The position numbers and the translations under genes are program-made. Below, piece after piece: positions 4,770-57,295 of a stretch of DNA of 64,000 bases. The notes under the pieces were generated by a model. The model was not told the origin of the DNA. It saw only the letters and a program-made list of their open reading frames with translations, and did not search any database. Position 1 is the stretch's first letter. Each line of letters begins with the position of its first letter. The DNA comes from Corallococcus macrosporus DSM 14697 (GTDB lineage: Bacteria > Myxococcota > Myxococcia > Myxococcales > Myxococcaceae), in contig NZ_CP022203.1 of assembly GCF_002305895.1 (NCBI RefSeq), positions 5,124,501 through 5,188,500 on the forward strand. The letters are read 5' to 3'.

Positions 4770-4770
<1 letters not shown>
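4735..4770. terminator. rho-independent terminator between convergent genes
   Basis: A perfect 10-bp stem, GGCGCGGAGA with TCTCCGCGCC, closes on the loop GCCC. It is followed by GTTCGTCG and four T residues at 4767-4770. It sits between the phospholipase-like gene (+) and the sigma-54 regulator (-). The T run favours termination of the plus-strand transcript. Confidence 0.7.
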
Positions 4771-6122
<1,352 letters not shown>

Positions 6123-6125
6123 GGT

Positions 6126-7448
6126 TCAGGCTCCCTTCGCCGGGACGGTGAGACGGAACTCCGCGCCGCCGCTGGCATGGCTGCGCGCGCTCACCGTGCC
6201 GCCATGCAGCTCGACGATGCGGCGGGTGATGGCCAGCCCCAGGCCCACGCCGCGCACGCGTCCGGTGACGAAGGGCTCGAAGATGCGCTGCTCCTCCCCT
6301 GTGGCGATGCCGGGCCCATGGTCCTTCACTGTGAACACCAGCGACGCGTCCTGCCGCTCCACGCGGGCCTCCACGCGGTGGCCTTCGGGGCTGGCCTGCA
6401 CGGCGTTGCGCAGGACGTTCTCCAGCGCCTGCTGCAACCGCCCCGCGTCCATGGGCCAGGGGGTGCGCTCCGAAAGGTAGCGGGCCTCCACCCGGGCCGC
6501 GCCCGTGCTCTCCACCGCCGCGCGCAGCACGTCGTTGGGGTCCGCCTCCACGCGGCGCAGCTCGCCGCTGGCCACGAAGCCCAGCAAGTCATTCATCAAC
6601 TGCTCCAGCCGCACGGCCTCCGACACCACCCGGTCCGCCTTGGGCGCCAGGACGGCGTCACGCTCCACGCGCTCGGCCAGGAGCTGCGCGTGCCCCTTGA
6701 GCGAGGCCAGGGGGTTGCGCAGCTCGTGCGCCAGCACCGCGGACATGGTGCCCAGGGCCGCCAGCCGCCGGCCCCGCTCCAGCTCCTCCGACAACGCCTC
6801 GCGCTGCGCCAGCGAACGGGAGAAGGCGAAGGCCAGCACCAGGATGCCCACGCACGAGGCCACCGCCACGCCCAGCAGCCGCTGCGAGCGCGACTCCAGC
6901 GCCAGCGCGGTCAGCGGCTCGAACTCGTAGACCATCCGCAACTGCTTGCGCGGCGCCTGGGCCTCCTCCTGCGCCGACAGCGCCCGCAGCTCCTGCCGCG
7001 TCAGGGGGCCGTGGGCCGGACGGGGACGGCGGATGCGGTGGACCAGCCGCGCACGCGCGCCTTCGACCACCAACGGAGAGGACTCCTGGAAGAGGAGGCG
7101 CCCGAGCTTCCCCTCCCCGGCCGAGGCCAGCACCTGGTCATCGTCCATGACGGCCACGTAGCGCAGGCCCCCCTCCCGGTGGGACGCCAGGAAGGCGTCC
7201 AGCGCGGAGGGCCCCGGCAGGCCCTCCGCGTCCCGGAAGGCCTCGAAGCCGGCCACCATGATGACGTTGGCCATGCCCCGGGCCACCAGGGCGGAGGACT
7301 CCAGCGCGGTGCTCCGGATGAACAACGCCGCCGACATCAGCACCGCGCACATGAGGACCGCCGCCACCCAGGGCGCCCGGGGTCCAAGCGGCCGCCACCA
7401 GGGAGCGCCGCTCATCGCCGACCTCCGCCGCGGGGACTCCAACTCCAT
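6126..7448 (-). CDS. sensor histidine kinase, membrane-bound, partner of the adjacent NtrC-type regulator
   Basis: A 440-residue kinase. A transmembrane segment ([17 protein letters not shown]) is followed by a periplasmic sensor of about 170 residues, a second membrane segment ([19 protein letters not shown]), then HisKA with [14 protein letters not shown] and the HATPase boxes [16 protein letters not shown] and GVGLGLAI. It should autophosphorylate on the H-box His and pass phosphate to the regulator that follows it. Two starts are equally good: ATG 7448 and ATG 7415 each have GGAGG six bases upstream. The longer one is used here. The sensor domain matches no family that I recognise, so the signal is unknown. 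It diverges from an efflux operon. Confidence 0.9.
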
Positions 7449-7484
7449 CGCACACCTCCACAGGCTGCGAACTCTGCATGCGGC

Positions 7485-7499
7485 GTGCGGAATCCGCAC
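7485..7499. promoter_or_regulatory. palindromic site 1 (GTGCGGAATCCGCAC)
   Basis: A perfect 15-base palindrome around a central base. It lies 37 bp upstream of the kinase ATG and about 345 bp upstream of the sigma-54 promoter. An identical 13-base core recurs at 7754-7766. Probably a regulator-binding site, possibly autoregulatory. Confidence 0.6.
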
Positions 7500-7752
7500 C
7501 CTCTTCCGTGAGTGCCGCGCGCCGCACGCGCCGGGGTTCGTCCAAGCAGCACAGGGGGCATGGGGGATTCTCCCGGGGGATGGAGGGCGGCCACACGGCC
7601 GCTGGCAGGGCGAAGGGGCGGGCTCCCGACGGCGGCGCGCCCCCATGGCGCCCAGGCGCTGTGCAATCACGAGGCCGGGGCCGCTGCTGAGGCTCGCGCG
7701 CGGGGCGCCAGGGGAAGGCCCACCGCGTTCGTGCGGGAATGGCCGGCGGCGC

Positions 7753-7767
7753 ATGCGGAATCCGCAC
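7753..7767. promoter_or_regulatory. palindromic site 2 (core TGCGGAATCCGCA)
   Basis: The same 13-base core as site 1, centred about 70 bp upstream of the -24 element at 7830. That is a typical distance for a bacterial enhancer bound by an NtrC-type activator. Its centre is 20 bp from site 3, close to two helical turns, which suits cooperative dimers. Confidence 0.65.
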
Positions 7768-7772
7768 TCGCG

Positions 7773-7787
7773 CTGCGGTTCCCGCAG
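7773..7787. promoter_or_regulatory. palindromic site 3 (CTGCGGTTCCCGCAG)
   Basis: The same TGCGG-N3-CCGCA architecture with a different centre (TTC). It is centred about 50 bp upstream of the -24 element. Together with site 2 it forms a tandem enhancer candidate. Confidence 0.6.
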
Positions 7788-7829
7788 CCCCGGCGCCCCT
7801 TTCCCTCCACATTTCCAGAGGTTGGAGCG

Positions 7830-7845
7830 TGGCAAGGCAAATGCA
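7830..7845 (+). promoter_or_regulatory. sigma-54 (-24/-12) promoter of the efflux operon
   Basis: The sequence TGGCAAGGCAAATGCA keeps the invariant GG and GC with the required ten-base spacing, and matches the consensus at most other positions. The predicted transcription start is near 7856, only a few bases before the first ATG of the TolC-family gene at 7861. Either the message has almost no leader, or translation starts at a later ATG (7906). Confidence 0.7.
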
Positions 7846-7860
7846 GTGGCCCTGCTTGCG

Positions 7861-9201
7861 ATGAAAAACGCACAGACACCGTGGTGGAAGCGGCAACCCT
7901 ACCGGATGACGGCCCTGGCCCTGGGCATCCTCGGGCTGGTGACGGTCCCCGGCGTGGGTCTGGCGCAGGAAACAACGTCGATGAAGCGCGTCTCCCTGGA
8001 GGAGGCCATCGCGCGGGCGATGAAGACGAGCCCCCAGGTGGCGCAAGCGGCGGGCTCCGTCACCAACACCGCGGCGGCGGAGCGCAGCGCGTTCGGCGCC
8101 TACCTGCCGAACCTGACGGCAAACGCGAACAGCTCGCTGGCCAGCAGCCAGCGCCTGGACCCGAACACCGGCCTGGTGTTCAACGCGCCCAGTGACACGT
8201 ACAGCGCCGGCCTGTCGGCCTCGTGGAACGTCTTCACCGGCGGCCAGCGCGGCGCCAACAGCCGGCAGGCGCAGGCGCGCTCCAGCGCGGCCCGGGCCGT
8301 CCTGATTGCCCAGCGCGCGTCCGCGGTGCTCGACGTGGAGCGCTCCTACTACGAGGTCCTCCGCGCGGGCGGACTGGAGGAGGTCGCCCTGTCCCGCATC
8401 GAGCGGGCGAAGCAGAACGCGGAGGCGGCGGAGCGGCGGCTCGCGGTGGGCTCGGCGACGCGCTCCGACGTCCTGCGTGCGAAGTACGACCTCACCTCCG
8501 CGCAGGAGGCCCTCCTCTCCGCGCAGACCCAGCACGCCGCCGCGGCGCTGTCGCTGGGCCGGCTCATTGGCGAGGACGGCCCGGTGGACGCCCAGCCCCT
8601 GGAGGCCGGGGACGAGGCGCCGTTCGCGCTCACCGACGAGGCGCTGACGGATGAAATCACCGCCCAGGCGCCCTCCATCCAGGCGGCGGAGGCGGACCTG
8701 CGGGCGGCGGAGGCCAGCGTGAAGGCGGCGAAGTCCTCCTACCTGCCCACGGTCCGGCTGTCGGGCGGTTATGACTGGTTCAATGACGAGCCCGCGTTCA
8801 ACGGAGGCCGCACGAGCTGGTCCGTCCGGCTGGGCCTCGCCTACCCCCTCTTCGACGGCTTCGTGCGCGAGGAGCGCGTGACGACGGCGCGGACGCAGTC
8901 CTCCGTGGCGCAGGCCACGCTGGCGGACACCCGGCGCGCGGTGCGCTCCAGCGTGGGGACGTCCCTGAACCAGCTCAAGCTGGCGTCGAACCGCATCGCC
9001 CTGGCCACGGAGTCCGTCTCGGTGGCGCAGGAGGACCTGAAGGTGCAGCAGGAGCGCTACAAGCTGGGCGCCACCACCATCATCGAGCTGCTGACGTCCC
9101 AGGAGAACCTGGTGTCGGCGGAGATCAACCTGGTGGCCTCCCGCTTCGACTACCGGATTGCGCGCGCGGAGCTGGAAGCGCTCGCGGGGAGGTCGCTGTG
9201 A
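7861..9201 (+). CDS. TolC-family outer membrane efflux protein
   Basis: A 446-residue outer-membrane channel component of a tripartite exporter. A signal sequence ([21 protein letters not shown]) ends near residue 36. Two OEP repeats of long alpha-helical hairpins then run through the protein, including the [19 protein letters not shown] and [20 protein letters not shown] helices typical of the family. The first ATG (7861) has no ribosome-binding site and sits right after the predicted sigma-54 start point. ATG 7906, which would give 431 residues, is an alternative. It overlaps the next gene by four bases (GTGA), so it belongs to one operon with the ABC and MFP genes. Confidence 0.9.
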
Positions 9202-9944
9202 GCACGTCCACCAACCCCCAGCCGCAGGCGGGCGCGGGCCCGGCGCGGGACATCTCCGACGTGGTCATCCGCGTGGAGGGCCTGCGCAAGGACTACACGA
9301 TGGGCTCCGAGGTGGTGCGCGCCCTGCGCGGCGTGGACCTCACCATCCGCCGCAACGAATACGTGGCCGTCATGGGCCCGTCCGGCTCCGGCAAGTCCAC
9401 CTTCATGAACCTCATCGGCTGCCTGGACGTGCCCAGCGACGGGCAGTACTGGCTCAACGGCCAGCCGGTGGCGGGCATGACGGAGAACGCGCTGGCCCGC
9501 ATCCGCAACCGCGAGCTGGGCTTCGTGTTCCAGAGCTTCAACCTGCTGCCCCGCGCCTCCGCGTTGGACAACGTGGCCCTGCCGCTCATCTACGCGCGCA
9601 TCCCCAAGAAGGAGCGGCGCGAGCGCGCGGCGGCCATGCTGGACAAGGTGGGCCTGGGCGCGCGCAAGGACCACCGGCCCAACGAGCTGTCCGGTGGTCA
9701 GCGCCAGCGCGTGGCCATTGCCCGCGCGCTGGTGACGCAGCCGGCGCTGCTGCTGGCGGACGAGCCCACGGGCGCGCTGGACAGCCGCACGGGCGAGGAG
9801 ATCATGGCGCTCTTCGGCGAGCTGCACGGCCAGGGGCAGACGCTGATGCTCGTCACCCACGAGTCGGACATCGCGGCGCATGCGCGGCGGGTGCTGTTCC
9901 TGAAGGACGGCGTCATCGAGCGGGACGAGCGGAATCGGGACTGA
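9198..9944 (+). CDS. ABC transporter ATP-binding protein (MacB/LolD-type)
   Basis: A 248-residue nucleotide-binding subunit. It shows Walker [10 protein letters not shown] near residue 58, Q-loop [14 protein letters not shown] signature LSGGQRQR, Walker [13 protein letters not shown] and the switch His in LVTHE. The [11 protein letters not shown] form is typical of the MacB/LolD branch, which exports macrolides, peptides or lipoproteins by a mechanotransmission mechanism. Unlike MacB itself, ATPase and permease are separate genes here. The GTG start overlaps the TolC gene by four bases. It would pair with the permease encoded 1.5 kb downstream. Confidence 0.93.
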
Positions 9945-9989: not shown

Positions 9990-11444
9990 GTGAGCAAGAC
10001 CAGGAAGTGGATCATCTCCGGCAGCGCGGCGCTCCTGCTTGGCGCGGGGGCGTACGTCACCCAGCGCGGCGAGGAGCCCCAGACGCAGGAGCGCTCGGCC
10101 GCGGTGGCGGTGGCGGAGCGCCGGGATATGGAGGTGGTGGCGGAGTCCGCGGGCCTGGTGGAGCCGCTCCGGGTGGTGGAGGTGAAGTCCAAGGCCTCTG
10201 GCGAGGTGCTCAAGGTCCACTTCGACACGGGTGACACCGTGGCCAAGGGCACGCTGCTGGCGGAGATCGAGCCGCGCGACGTGCAGAACGCGCTGGCGCA
10301 GGCCCAGGCCGACCTGGACTCCGCGCGGGTGCGGCTGAACACCACGGAGGCCCAGCGCGCGCGCATGGAGACGCTGCGCAAGGACGGCTACGTGACGCAG
10401 CAGGAGTACGAGACGGCGGTGGACGCGTCCGCCACGGCGCGGGCGGCGAAGGTGCGCGCGGAGACGAACCTGCAGCTCGCGCGGGAGCGCAGCCGCGACG
10501 TCACCATCATCGCCCCCAGCCCTGGCACCATCCTGGAGCGGACCATCCAGCCGGGCGTCATCATCGCCTCCGCCACCAACAACGTGTCCGGCGGCACCGC
10601 GCTGTTCAAGATGGCGGACCTGTCGGTGATGCAGGTGCGCGCCAAGGTGGACGAGACGGACGTCGGGCAGATCAAGCCCGGCCAGACGGCACGCGTCACC
10701 ATGGAGGCCTACCCGGACCGCACCTTCATCGGTGAGGTGGTGAAGATCGAACCGCAGGCGCTGGTGGAGCAGAACGTGACCCTCTTCCCGGTGCTGGTGC
10801 GCCTGGAGAACAAGAACGGCCTGCTGCGCCCGGGCATGAACGCGGAGGTGGCCATTGAAATCTCCCGCCGCCGCAACGCCATCACCGTGCCCAACACCGC
10901 GGTGGTGGGGGTGCGCGAGGCCCGGACCGCGGCCGCCGCGGTGGGCGTGTCCGAGGAGACGATGCGCGCGGTGATGCGGCCGCCGGGCGCGCCGAGCCAG
11001 CCGGCCGCGCCGTCCGGAGCGACGACGGTGTCCGCCGTGGGTGAAGCAGGCGCGGGCGCCACCGCCGCGGTGGCCAGCGGCAACGGGCCGGGCGCGGACG
11101 CGGTGCCCGCCCGGGGGCCGGAGTCCATGGGTGAAGGCCAGGGCGGCGCGGGCGCGGGCCGCGCGGGCCGCCGGATGCGCGAGGCCTCCCAGGGCACGGG
11201 GGACACGCGGCAGGGCGTCGTCTTCGTGCAGGGCCCCACGGGGCCGCAGCCCCGGCGCGTCACCCTGGGCCTGAGCGACTGGGAGAGCACGGAGGTGGTG
11301 AGCGGCCTGGAGGAAGGCGAGCAGGTGGTGCTCATCTCGGTGGCGAAGCTCCAGCAGCAGCAGCAGCAGCGCACCGAGCGGATGCGCCAGATGACGGGCG
11401 GCGTGATTCCCGGCGCGAGCGGCCGCCCGCGGGGCCCGCGCTAG
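9990..11444 (+). CDS. efflux RND/ABC periplasmic adaptor (MacA/HlyD family)
   Basis: A 484-residue membrane-fusion protein linking the inner-membrane ABC complex to the TolC-type channel. A membrane anchor (WIISGSAALLLGAGAYV) is followed by the lipoyl/barrel-sandwich half around ASGEVLKVHFDTGDTVAKG, an alpha-helical hairpin, the second lipoyl half, and a beta-barrel domain (VRAKVDETDVGQIKPGQ). An unusual Gly/Ala/Arg-rich insert of about 90 residues (about 325-415) interrupts the membrane-proximal domain, and a glutamine run (QQQQQQ) sits near the C-terminus. The start is GTG 9990, 45 bp after the ATPase gene. The insert is low-complexity and probably disordered. Confidence 0.9.
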   Translation: MSKTRKWIISGSAALLLGAGAYVTQRGEEPQTQERSAAVAVAERRDMEVVAESAGLVEPLRVVEVKSKASGEVLKVHFDTGDTVAKGTLLAEIEPRDVQNALAQAQADLDSARVRLNTTEAQRARMETLRKDGYVTQQEYETAVDASATARAAKVRAETNLQLARERSRDVTIIAPSPGTILERTIQPGVIIASATNNVSGGTALFKMADLSVMQVRAKVDETDVGQIKPGQTARVTMEAYPDRTFIGEVVKIEPQALVEQNVTLFPVLVRLENKNGLLRPGMNAEVAIEISRRRNAITVPNTAVVGVREARTAAAAVGVSEETMRAVMRPPGAPSQPAAPSGATTVSAVGEAGAGATAAVASGNGPGADAVPARGPESMGEGQGGAGAGRAGRRMREASQGTGDTRQGVVFVQGPTGPQPRRVTLGLSDWESTEVVSGLEEGEQVVLISVAKLQQQQQQRTERMRQMTGGVIPGASGRPRGPR

Positions 11445-11474: not shown

Positions 11475-12680
11475 ATGGGTGAAATCATCCGGGTCGCATT
11501 CGATGCGGTCCTCGCCAACAAGCTGCGCTCGCTGCTGACCATGCTGGGCATCGTCATCGGCATCGCGGCGGTCATCACCATGGTCGCGCTGGGTGAAGGC
11601 GCGCAGCGCTCGGTGGCGCAGCGGCTCCAGGGGCTGGGCACCAACGTCCTCACGGTGCGCCCGGGCCAGTCCTTCACTGGCGGCATGATTCGCGCCCAGG
11701 CGTCGATGACCATCGACGACGCGGAGGCCCTGCGGGAGAACCCGCGCCACATCCAGGCCGTGGCGCCGGAGATCGAGTCGCGCTTCCAGGTGGAGTACGG
11801 CGCGAAGAACGCGAACCTGTCCGTGGTGGGCACCTGGCCGGACTACTTCAAGGTCAACCAGGGGCAGGTCACCGACGGGCGGCTCTTCACGGACGCGGAG
11901 GACAAGGGCCGCCGCCGGGTGGTGGTGCTGGGCGCGCTGGCGGGGGCCCAGTTGGGCCTGACGGACACCGCGGCGCTGGTGGGCGAGTCCATCCGCATCC
12001 GCGGCATCCCGTTCCAGGTCATCGGGGTGCTGGCGGAGAAAGGCGCCCAGGGCTTCAACAACCCGGACGAGAGCCTCTACATCCCCCTGTCCACCGCGCA
12101 GTTCCGCGTCATGGGCAGCGACCGCATCCGCTCCATCGCCGTGCAGGCCGTGAGCGACACGTCCATGGACGACGCGATGGCGGAGATCGACCAGAAGCTC
12201 CGGCGCGAGCACCGGCTGCGGCCGGAGCAGCCCGCGGACTTCAACATCCGCGACCAGGCCTCGCTGCTCAGCACCATGCAGGAGACGACGCAGACGTTCT
12301 CCCTGCTGCTGGCCGGCATCGCCGCCATCTCCCTGTTGGTGGGAGGCATTGGCATCATGAACATCATGCTGGTGTCGGTGACGGAGCGCACGCGCGAGAT
12401 TGGCCTGCGCAAGGCCCTGGGCGCCACGGGCATGGACATCATGCTCCAGTTCCTCGTGGAGTCGCTGGTGCTGTGCCTGGCGGGCGGCACGCTGGGCCTG
12501 CTGCTGGGCATGGGCGGCGCGGCGATGCTCCAGCGCATGGCCGGGTGGACGGTGGTGGTGGCGCCCGAGGCCATCATCGTGGCCATCGCCTTCTCCGCGA
12601 CGGTGGGGGTCTTCTTCGGCATCTGGCCGGCGCGGCGCGCGGCGAGCCTCGCGCCCATCGAATCCCTCCGCTACGAGTAG
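11475..12680 (+). CDS. ABC transporter permease (MacB/FtsX type)
   Basis: A 401-residue permease with the MacB topology. One N-terminal membrane helix (LRSLLTMLGIVIGIAAVITM) is followed by a large periplasmic domain (about residues 45-265). Three C-terminal membrane helices then form the FtsX domain, with the conserved GIMNIMLVSVTERTREIGLR stretch and the ending ARRAASLAPIESLRYE. It completes the TolC-ATPase-MFP-permease exporter. The substrate cannot be read from sequence; related systems move macrolides, lipopeptides or siderophores out of the periplasm. AAGGAGGAGG precedes the ATG. Confidence 0.92.
   Translation: MGEIIRVAFDAVLANKLRSLLTMLGIVIGIAAVITMVALGEGAQRSVAQRLQGLGTNVLTVRPGQSFTGGMIRAQASMTIDDAEALRENPRHIQAVAPEIESRFQVEYGAKNANLSVVGTWPDYFKVNQGQVTDGRLFTDAEDKGRRRVVVLGALAGAQLGLTDTAALVGESIRIRGIPFQVIGVLAEKGAQGFNNPDESLYIPLSTAQFRVMGSDRIRSIAVQAVSDTSMDDAMAEIDQKLRREHRLRPEQPADFNIRDQASLLSTMQETTQTFSLLLAGIAAISLLVGGIGIMNIMLVSVTERTREIGLRKALGATGMDIMLQFLVESLVLCLAGGTLGLLLGMGGAAMLQRMAGWTVVVAPEAIIVAIAFSATVGVFFGIWPARRAASLAPIESLRYE

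Positions 12681-51096: not shown

Positions 51097-55237
<4,141 letters not shown>

Positions 55238-55879: not shown

Positions 55880-57295
<1,416 letters not shown>

Follow-up and report, generated by a model that had tools for sequence, protein, structure and literature searches.

The closest known systems to the locus described here are ZraSR of Escherichia coli and NmpRSTU and CorSR of Myxococcus xanthus. In E. coli, ZraSR/ZraP comprises a kinase and an NtrC-type regulator divergent to a sigma-54-driven envelope target, with autoregulation. NmpR of M. xanthus is an NtrC-like protein that activates the divergent sigma-54 promoter of its own operon via the tandem dyads S1 and S2, which have the form GCGCA-N5-TGCGC with 14-bp gaps; the NmpRSTU regulon serves oxygen utilisation (PMC11841059). 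CorSR couples a kinase to a sigma-54 NtrC-like regulator of copper-tolerance genes with putative sigma-54 promoters, and its genes belong to the copper operon curA (MXAN_3413-3421), which also encodes a P1B ATPase and a multicopper oxidase (PMC3707914). Sigma-54 is reported to be essential in M. xanthus, and a 2025 survey predicted sigma-54 control of FtsX-like permeases. Nla28, which has an RND/ABC efflux target, has the published half-site CT(C/G)CG(C/G)AG, which differs from the TGCGG-N3-CCGCA palindrome that is the subject of this study. We found no literature on sigma-54 control of MacAB and no paper that assigns the binding sites described below. The type of circuit is already known.

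Genes of the locus and comparison with known systems

We analyzed a window of 64,000 nucleotides from Corallococcus macrosporus DSM 14697. On its reverse strand, an NtrC-family response regulator (positions 4770 to 6122), with a receiver domain, a sigma-54 AAA+ domain carrying GAFTGA, and a Fis-type helix-turn-helix (HTH) (PF00072, PF00158, and PF02954), adjoins its presumed cognate membrane sensor histidine kinase (6126 to 7450; Pfam HisKA and HATPase_c). On the forward strand, a single operon encodes a TolC-family outer membrane efflux protein (7861 to 9201; identified from its translation and Pfam OEP), an ABC ATPase resembling the MacB nucleotide-binding domain and LolD (9198 to 9944; Pfam ABC_tran, best NCBIfam models MacB and LolD), a periplasmic adaptor of the MacA/RND_mfp type (9990 to 11444; TIGR01730 above cut-off), and a MacB-type permease with MacB_PCD and FtsX domains (11475 to 12680; PF12704 and PF02687). 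All the parts of a MacAB-TolC exporter, namely, TolC, a MacA-type adaptor, and MacB-type permease domains, are therefore present, but the ATPase and the permease, which are fused in E. coli MacB, are separate proteins here.

Regulator orthologs in 26 genomes of the same genus are 87 to 97% identical, and each of the 24 genomes of the genus in the comparison retains the block of kinase/regulator and exporter genes. By tblastn, the kinase gene lies beside the regulator in 23 of 24 same-genus relatives; in the remaining one (L057), the fast-evolving kinase had no match. A scan of genome contigs gave relatives of 40 to 51% only.

The locus resembles ZraSR in its divergent arrangement, and ZraS is, with AtoS, the best NCBIfam resemblance of the kinase, below cut-off. 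However, the target of E. coli ZraSR is a periplasmic chaperone rather than an exporter, and its operator is different. Like CorSR, the locus pairs a kinase with a sigma-54 NtrC-like regulator, but CorSR lies within the copper operon, whereas the C. macrosporus pair is divergent to a MacAB-TolC-type locus. The regulator lies outside any curA-like operon, and Pfam searches of its neighbourhood, six genes in all, revealed neither a copper ATPase nor an oxidase. The plan of NmpRSTU is the same, with an NtrC-family regulator, tandem dyads, and a divergent sigma-54 promoter; the differences are a TGCGG-N3-CCGCA dyad, 7-bp gaps, and an exporter as the target. A search of positions 7451 to 7860 for GCGCA-N5-TGCGC with 0 or 1 mismatches found none, which speaks against membership in the NmpR regulon.

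Elsewhere in the window, GCGCAATGCCTGCGT and GCGCAAACCTTGCGC, separated by a 14-bp gap at 53192 to 53235, agree with the S1/S2 pair published for NmpR of M. xanthus. Encoded nearby, at ~55892 to 57235, is an NtrC-type regulator 48% identical to the one at 4770 to 6122. This region is possibly the NmpRSTU locus.

Paired palindromes and sigma-54 elements in the divergent intergenic region

The first-pass annotation of this DNA had described three TGCGG-N3-CCGCA palindromes upstream of the exporter operon, two of them with a common 13-base core and a third of the same architecture. Inspection of the sequence and a pattern scan bore this out, with exact matches at 7486 to 7498 (site 1; centre AAT), 7754 to 7766 (site 2; centre AAT), and 7774 to 7786 (site 3, TGCGGTTCCCGCA; centre TTC). 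Sites 1 and 2 both read TGCGGAATCCGCA and share 14 bases if the following C is included (TGCGGAATCCGCAC). Sites 2 and 3 are, as claimed, 20 bp apart and some 50 to 70 bp upstream of a -24/-12 element, their centres being 71 and 51 bp upstream of the -24 GG of TGGCAAGGCAAATGCA. A fourth, degenerate palindrome that had been missed, site 1' (TGCGAACTCTGCA, 7466 to 7478), lies 20 bp from site 1, so the locus has two pairs, each with 20-bp spacing. The annotation had assigned all three of its sites to the exporter; this is supported for the site 2/3 pair, whereas site 1, 36 bp from the kinase start codon, is half of the second pair.

The 8.97-Mb genome has 21 exact copies of the palindrome. Given this number, the clustering of three of them within 301 bp at the exporter locus is not due to chance. 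When the whole genome was searched for palindrome pairs with 20-bp spacing, allowing up to 3 mismatches, four places came up: the two pairs of the exporter locus, with 0 and 2 mismatches, and two other places with 3 mismatches each. Double sites with 0 to 2 mismatches at this spacing are thus confined to the exporter locus (n = 2), and the site 2/3 pair is the only strict pair in the genome at any spacing from 19 to 24 bp. The remaining exact copies (n = 18) and the one-mismatch copies (n = 9) all lack a nearby sigma-54 element with a score of at least 18, and most of them fall within coding sequence. We rejected a genome-wide regulon in C. macrosporus for these two reasons; as far as sequence can tell, the motif in this genome is a near one-locus operator.

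The predicted sigma-54 promoter of the exporter operon is TGGCAAG-N4-ATGCA (TGGCAAGGCAAATGCA) at 7830 to 7845 on the forward strand. On the reverse strand, a -24/-12-like element that the first-pass annotation had not noted, CGGCCTCGTGATTGCA at 7662 to 7677, faces the kinase/regulator operon; its -24 half is poor, with GGCC instead of GGCAC. We conclude that this element is probably a separate sigma-54 promoter for the kinase and regulator genes. The 64-kb window contains 14 matches to the -24/-12 pattern, compared with 27 expected, so the exporter match is significant because it is conserved and would not be significant alone in one genome. Sites 1 to 3 and the exporter promoter were fixed in advance, by the earlier annotation, whereas site 1' and the reverse-strand element were found on looking.

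An alignment of the intergenic region between the divergent operons, covering 25 genomes, was scored column by column for invariance; the genomes are related, and the counts are consequently not independent. The share of invariant columns is 62 to 100% in sites 1, 1', and 2 and in the two -24/-12 elements, compared with 8.5% where the region has no named feature; these five are its most conserved stretches and stand out as islands. Site 1 with its next base (7486 to 7499) is invariant in 14 of 14 columns, and TGCGAACTCTGCAT (site 1' and its next base, 7466 to 7479) is invariant in 13 of 14; site 1' and the reverse-strand element are also among the stretches of lowest entropy. Site 2, the main half of the exporter-side pair, is invariant in 12 of 13 columns, one base being changed (TGCGAAATCCGCA) in 3 of the 25 genomes. 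Both -24/-12 elements have 10 of 16 invariant columns and keep GG-N10-GC in all 25 genomes. The exporter element reads TGGCA-N7-TGCA throughout, with a spacer free to vary, and the reverse-strand element, despite its weak -24 half, keeps TTGCA throughout. Site 3 is the least conserved (3 of 13 columns), being exact in the close clade and degenerate or lost in much of the genus, where the exporter promoter may consequently function with a single good site.

Site 2 stands exactly 76 bp from the exporter -24 element in 25 of 25 genomes, even though the intergenic gap itself measures anything from 392 to 659 bp, whereas its distance to the reverse-strand promoter varies. The exporter side thus has the tandem dyads at helical spacing expected of an enhancer, with site 3 present in only some of the genomes. 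A moderately conserved ATTTC...GGTTG block at 7812 to 7825, between the enhancer pair and the promoter, forms a weaker island; its resemblance to a degenerate IHF-type site in some relatives is only suggestive, and in the window the block is degenerate.

Distribution of the motif in other genera

Outside the genus, regulator orthologs that are 60 to 69% identical are present in six genomes of the same family and in one genome of another family (G039). No exporter lies beside the regulator at any of the six such loci examined (L070 and L088 to L092), two of which, L070 and L092, end near a contig edge. Nevertheless, at three of them, from two other genera of the family (L088, L089, and L091), a pair with 20- to 22-bp spacing precedes the kinase with no such pump adjoining, and a TGGAACG- or CGGAACG-N4-TTGCT element follows 64 to 77 bp after the pair. 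The locus from another family (L070) has a 20-bp pair near the kinase start, one copy being exact, and a weak second pair that precedes a TGGAACA-N4-TTGCA element facing a divergent gene. At L070 and at L120, a further ortholog locus with paired sites, no good sigma-54 element points toward the kinase, and at L090 the regulator has no exact site next to it. Gene calls in these and other genomes were made in this analysis.

As a blind test, we searched 145 genomes at the level of DNA only and found an exact 22-bp pair in one of them (G104); the 7.5-kb contig that carries it then proved to encode a regulator 69% identical to that of C. macrosporus. In four regulator-bearing genomes (G041, G052, G080, and G082), we examined nine distant loci with the core. 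All nine are intergenic, and eight are paired at 21 to 23 bp; two of the nine (L114 and L118) are orthologous to each other. An outward-facing sigma-54 element scoring at least 18, in an ad hoc weighting with a maximum of 21, is present at seven of the nine, compared with 3.2% of random positions and with none of eight control copies, from genomes without an ortholog and from the LysR locus described below. Hence, the association of the palindrome with sigma-54 promoters that the first-pass annotation had proposed to look for genome-wide is confined to a single locus in C. macrosporus and holds for most copies in other regulator-bearing genera. The recognition-helix signature LGIGxRTLYxKL is common to the regulator orthologs and differs in two paralogs of 50%. 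Judged by this distribution, the palindrome tracks the regulator rather than the pump.

Pairs near sigma-54 elements occur together with regulator orthologs and not in their absence. The exception to this co-occurrence is a set of core pairs at 21 to 22 bp in three genomes of another family (L097, 4001 to 4034; L125, 2001; L126, 2001), which lie near a small YggX-like gene and have no sigma-54 elements. These pairs are probably a separate system.

Genes near the pairs in other genera mostly encode exported proteins, among them large lipoproteins (L114/L118), a PAN-domain protein (L116), an astacin-like protein (L117), a PKD/sulfotransferase-like lipoprotein (L096), and YHYH proteins (L113, and L120, where the gene is next to the kinase). 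This content suggests, as a lead, that the regulator responds to an envelope or metal-related signal. At L112 (1018 to 3533), a YHYH lipoprotein and a multicopper oxidase are encoded divergently across one pair with two facing sigma-54 elements. This layout is the same as that of the C. macrosporus window, with different cargo.

Two other groups of copies were set aside. Core-like copies, two or three at 21-bp spacing, precede an RND-pump outer-membrane gene at L093, L094, L100, L102, and L104 (core copies with a 21-bp period at L093 4915, L094 4296, and L104 3855). We rejected this gene as a second efflux target, since the copies at L094 and L104, judged by eye, fit in-frame 7-residue repeats (ADSAPG-like) within the N-terminal linker of the encoded protein. 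An exact core also occurs next to a LysR-type gene that diverges from an MFS transporter gene (L003, 1501 to 1560; L098, 3950; L107, 4001). This locus has further TGCG..TTCCGCA repeats, found in relatives too, and looks like a separate LysR operator; its copies have no sigma-54 element, and we treated them as unrelated.

Proposed circuit and competing explanations

We conclude that the NtrC-family regulator very probably recognises the pairs and, through sigma-54, turns on the exporter genes and probably those of its own operon as well. The first-pass annotation had joined the enhancer pair, the sigma-54 promoter, and the divergent cognate regulator in the same way, and the conservation in 25 genomes, the fixed spacing, and the tracking of regulator orthologs by the motif all support that assignment. 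In the proposed circuit, TGCGGAATCCGCA would be the operator of the adjacent regulator at 4770 to 6122. The membrane kinase would sense an envelope or extracellular signal and phosphorylate the regulator. Dimers of the phosphorylated protein would then bind sites 2 and 3, two dyads that share one face of the helix at a distance of 20 bp or about two turns, form oligomers, and engage sigma-54 polymerase at 7830 to 7845, switching on the operon for TolC, the ABC ATPase, the MacA-like adaptor, and the MacB-like permease. The same pair probably also serves the weaker reverse promoter at 7662 to 7677, giving autoactivation of the kinase and regulator. The second pair (7466/7486), 22 to 42 bp before the kinase start codon and downstream of 7662 to 7677, would lie in the predicted kinase leader, so feedback that limits autoactivation is one possible role; alternatively, the pair may serve another kinase promoter.

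The palindromes could instead be operators of another factor, such as an unlinked TetR-, MarR-, or LysR-type efflux regulator, that represses or co-regulates the exporter while the NtrC-type regulator binds elsewhere. Simple dyads this long are typical of such repressors, the 7466/7486 pair stands beside a start codon as repressor sites do, and an exact core copy is present at the LysR/MFS locus. However, no TetR-, MarR-, or LysR-type regulator is divergent to the pump, and the motif follows NtrC-type orthologs to loci without a pump, where the pairs are 42 to 77 bp from sigma-54 elements. The 20- to 23-bp pairing likewise fits an enhancer-binding protein, and we consider a role for another factor unlikely. 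It is less likely again that the regulator binds the pairs mainly to autoregulate its own operon, with the exporter under a different enhancer-binding protein. The conserved neighbouring target in other genera is indeed the kinase operon and not the exporter, but it is the exporter promoter, rather than the reverse promoter, that stands at a constant distance from site 2 in 25 genomes, and the exporter operon is divergent to the regulator in all aligned genomes.

We also considered whether the sites act in RNA, as short TGCGG/CCGCA hairpins in the kinase or exporter leader. Neither predicted transcript would include sites 2 and 3, which are upstream of the two start points, although the 7466/7486 pair would be in the kinase leader if transcription starts from 7662 to 7677. 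Each site could form a 5-bp stem with a 3-nt loop, but the centre AAT, which would be the loop, is invariant, and the alignment has no compensatory changes, as expected for contact between protein and DNA. Action in RNA is therefore scarcely credible. Activation by the NtrC-family regulator through the pairs remains the preferred explanation.

A broader reading, which we offer tentatively, is that one orthologous NtrC-type regulator, paired TGCGGAATCCGCA dyads, and sigma-54 may form a previously undescribed envelope-response regulon of myxobacteria. The regulon would control secreted proteins in some genera (YHYH, multicopper oxidase, and PKD/sulfotransferase-like proteins) and would have been redirected in this genus to a MacAB-TolC-type exporter with its operator unchanged. 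The analysis assigns a binding motif and likely direct targets, by sequence alone, to one of the many myxobacterial enhancer-binding proteins, and it links sigma-54 to a MacAB-TolC-type exporter. It also offers a ready test of how an operator can be retained while the genes under it differ between genera.

The predicted sigma-54 start point of the exporter operon is at ~7856, ~5 nt before the conserved tolC ATG at 7861 (window positions 7845 to 7863). At this distance, the tolC message in this clade may be near-leaderless. Relatives in another clade have ~50 bp more before the tolC ATG, with AACGGGACAAGG preceding the ATG.
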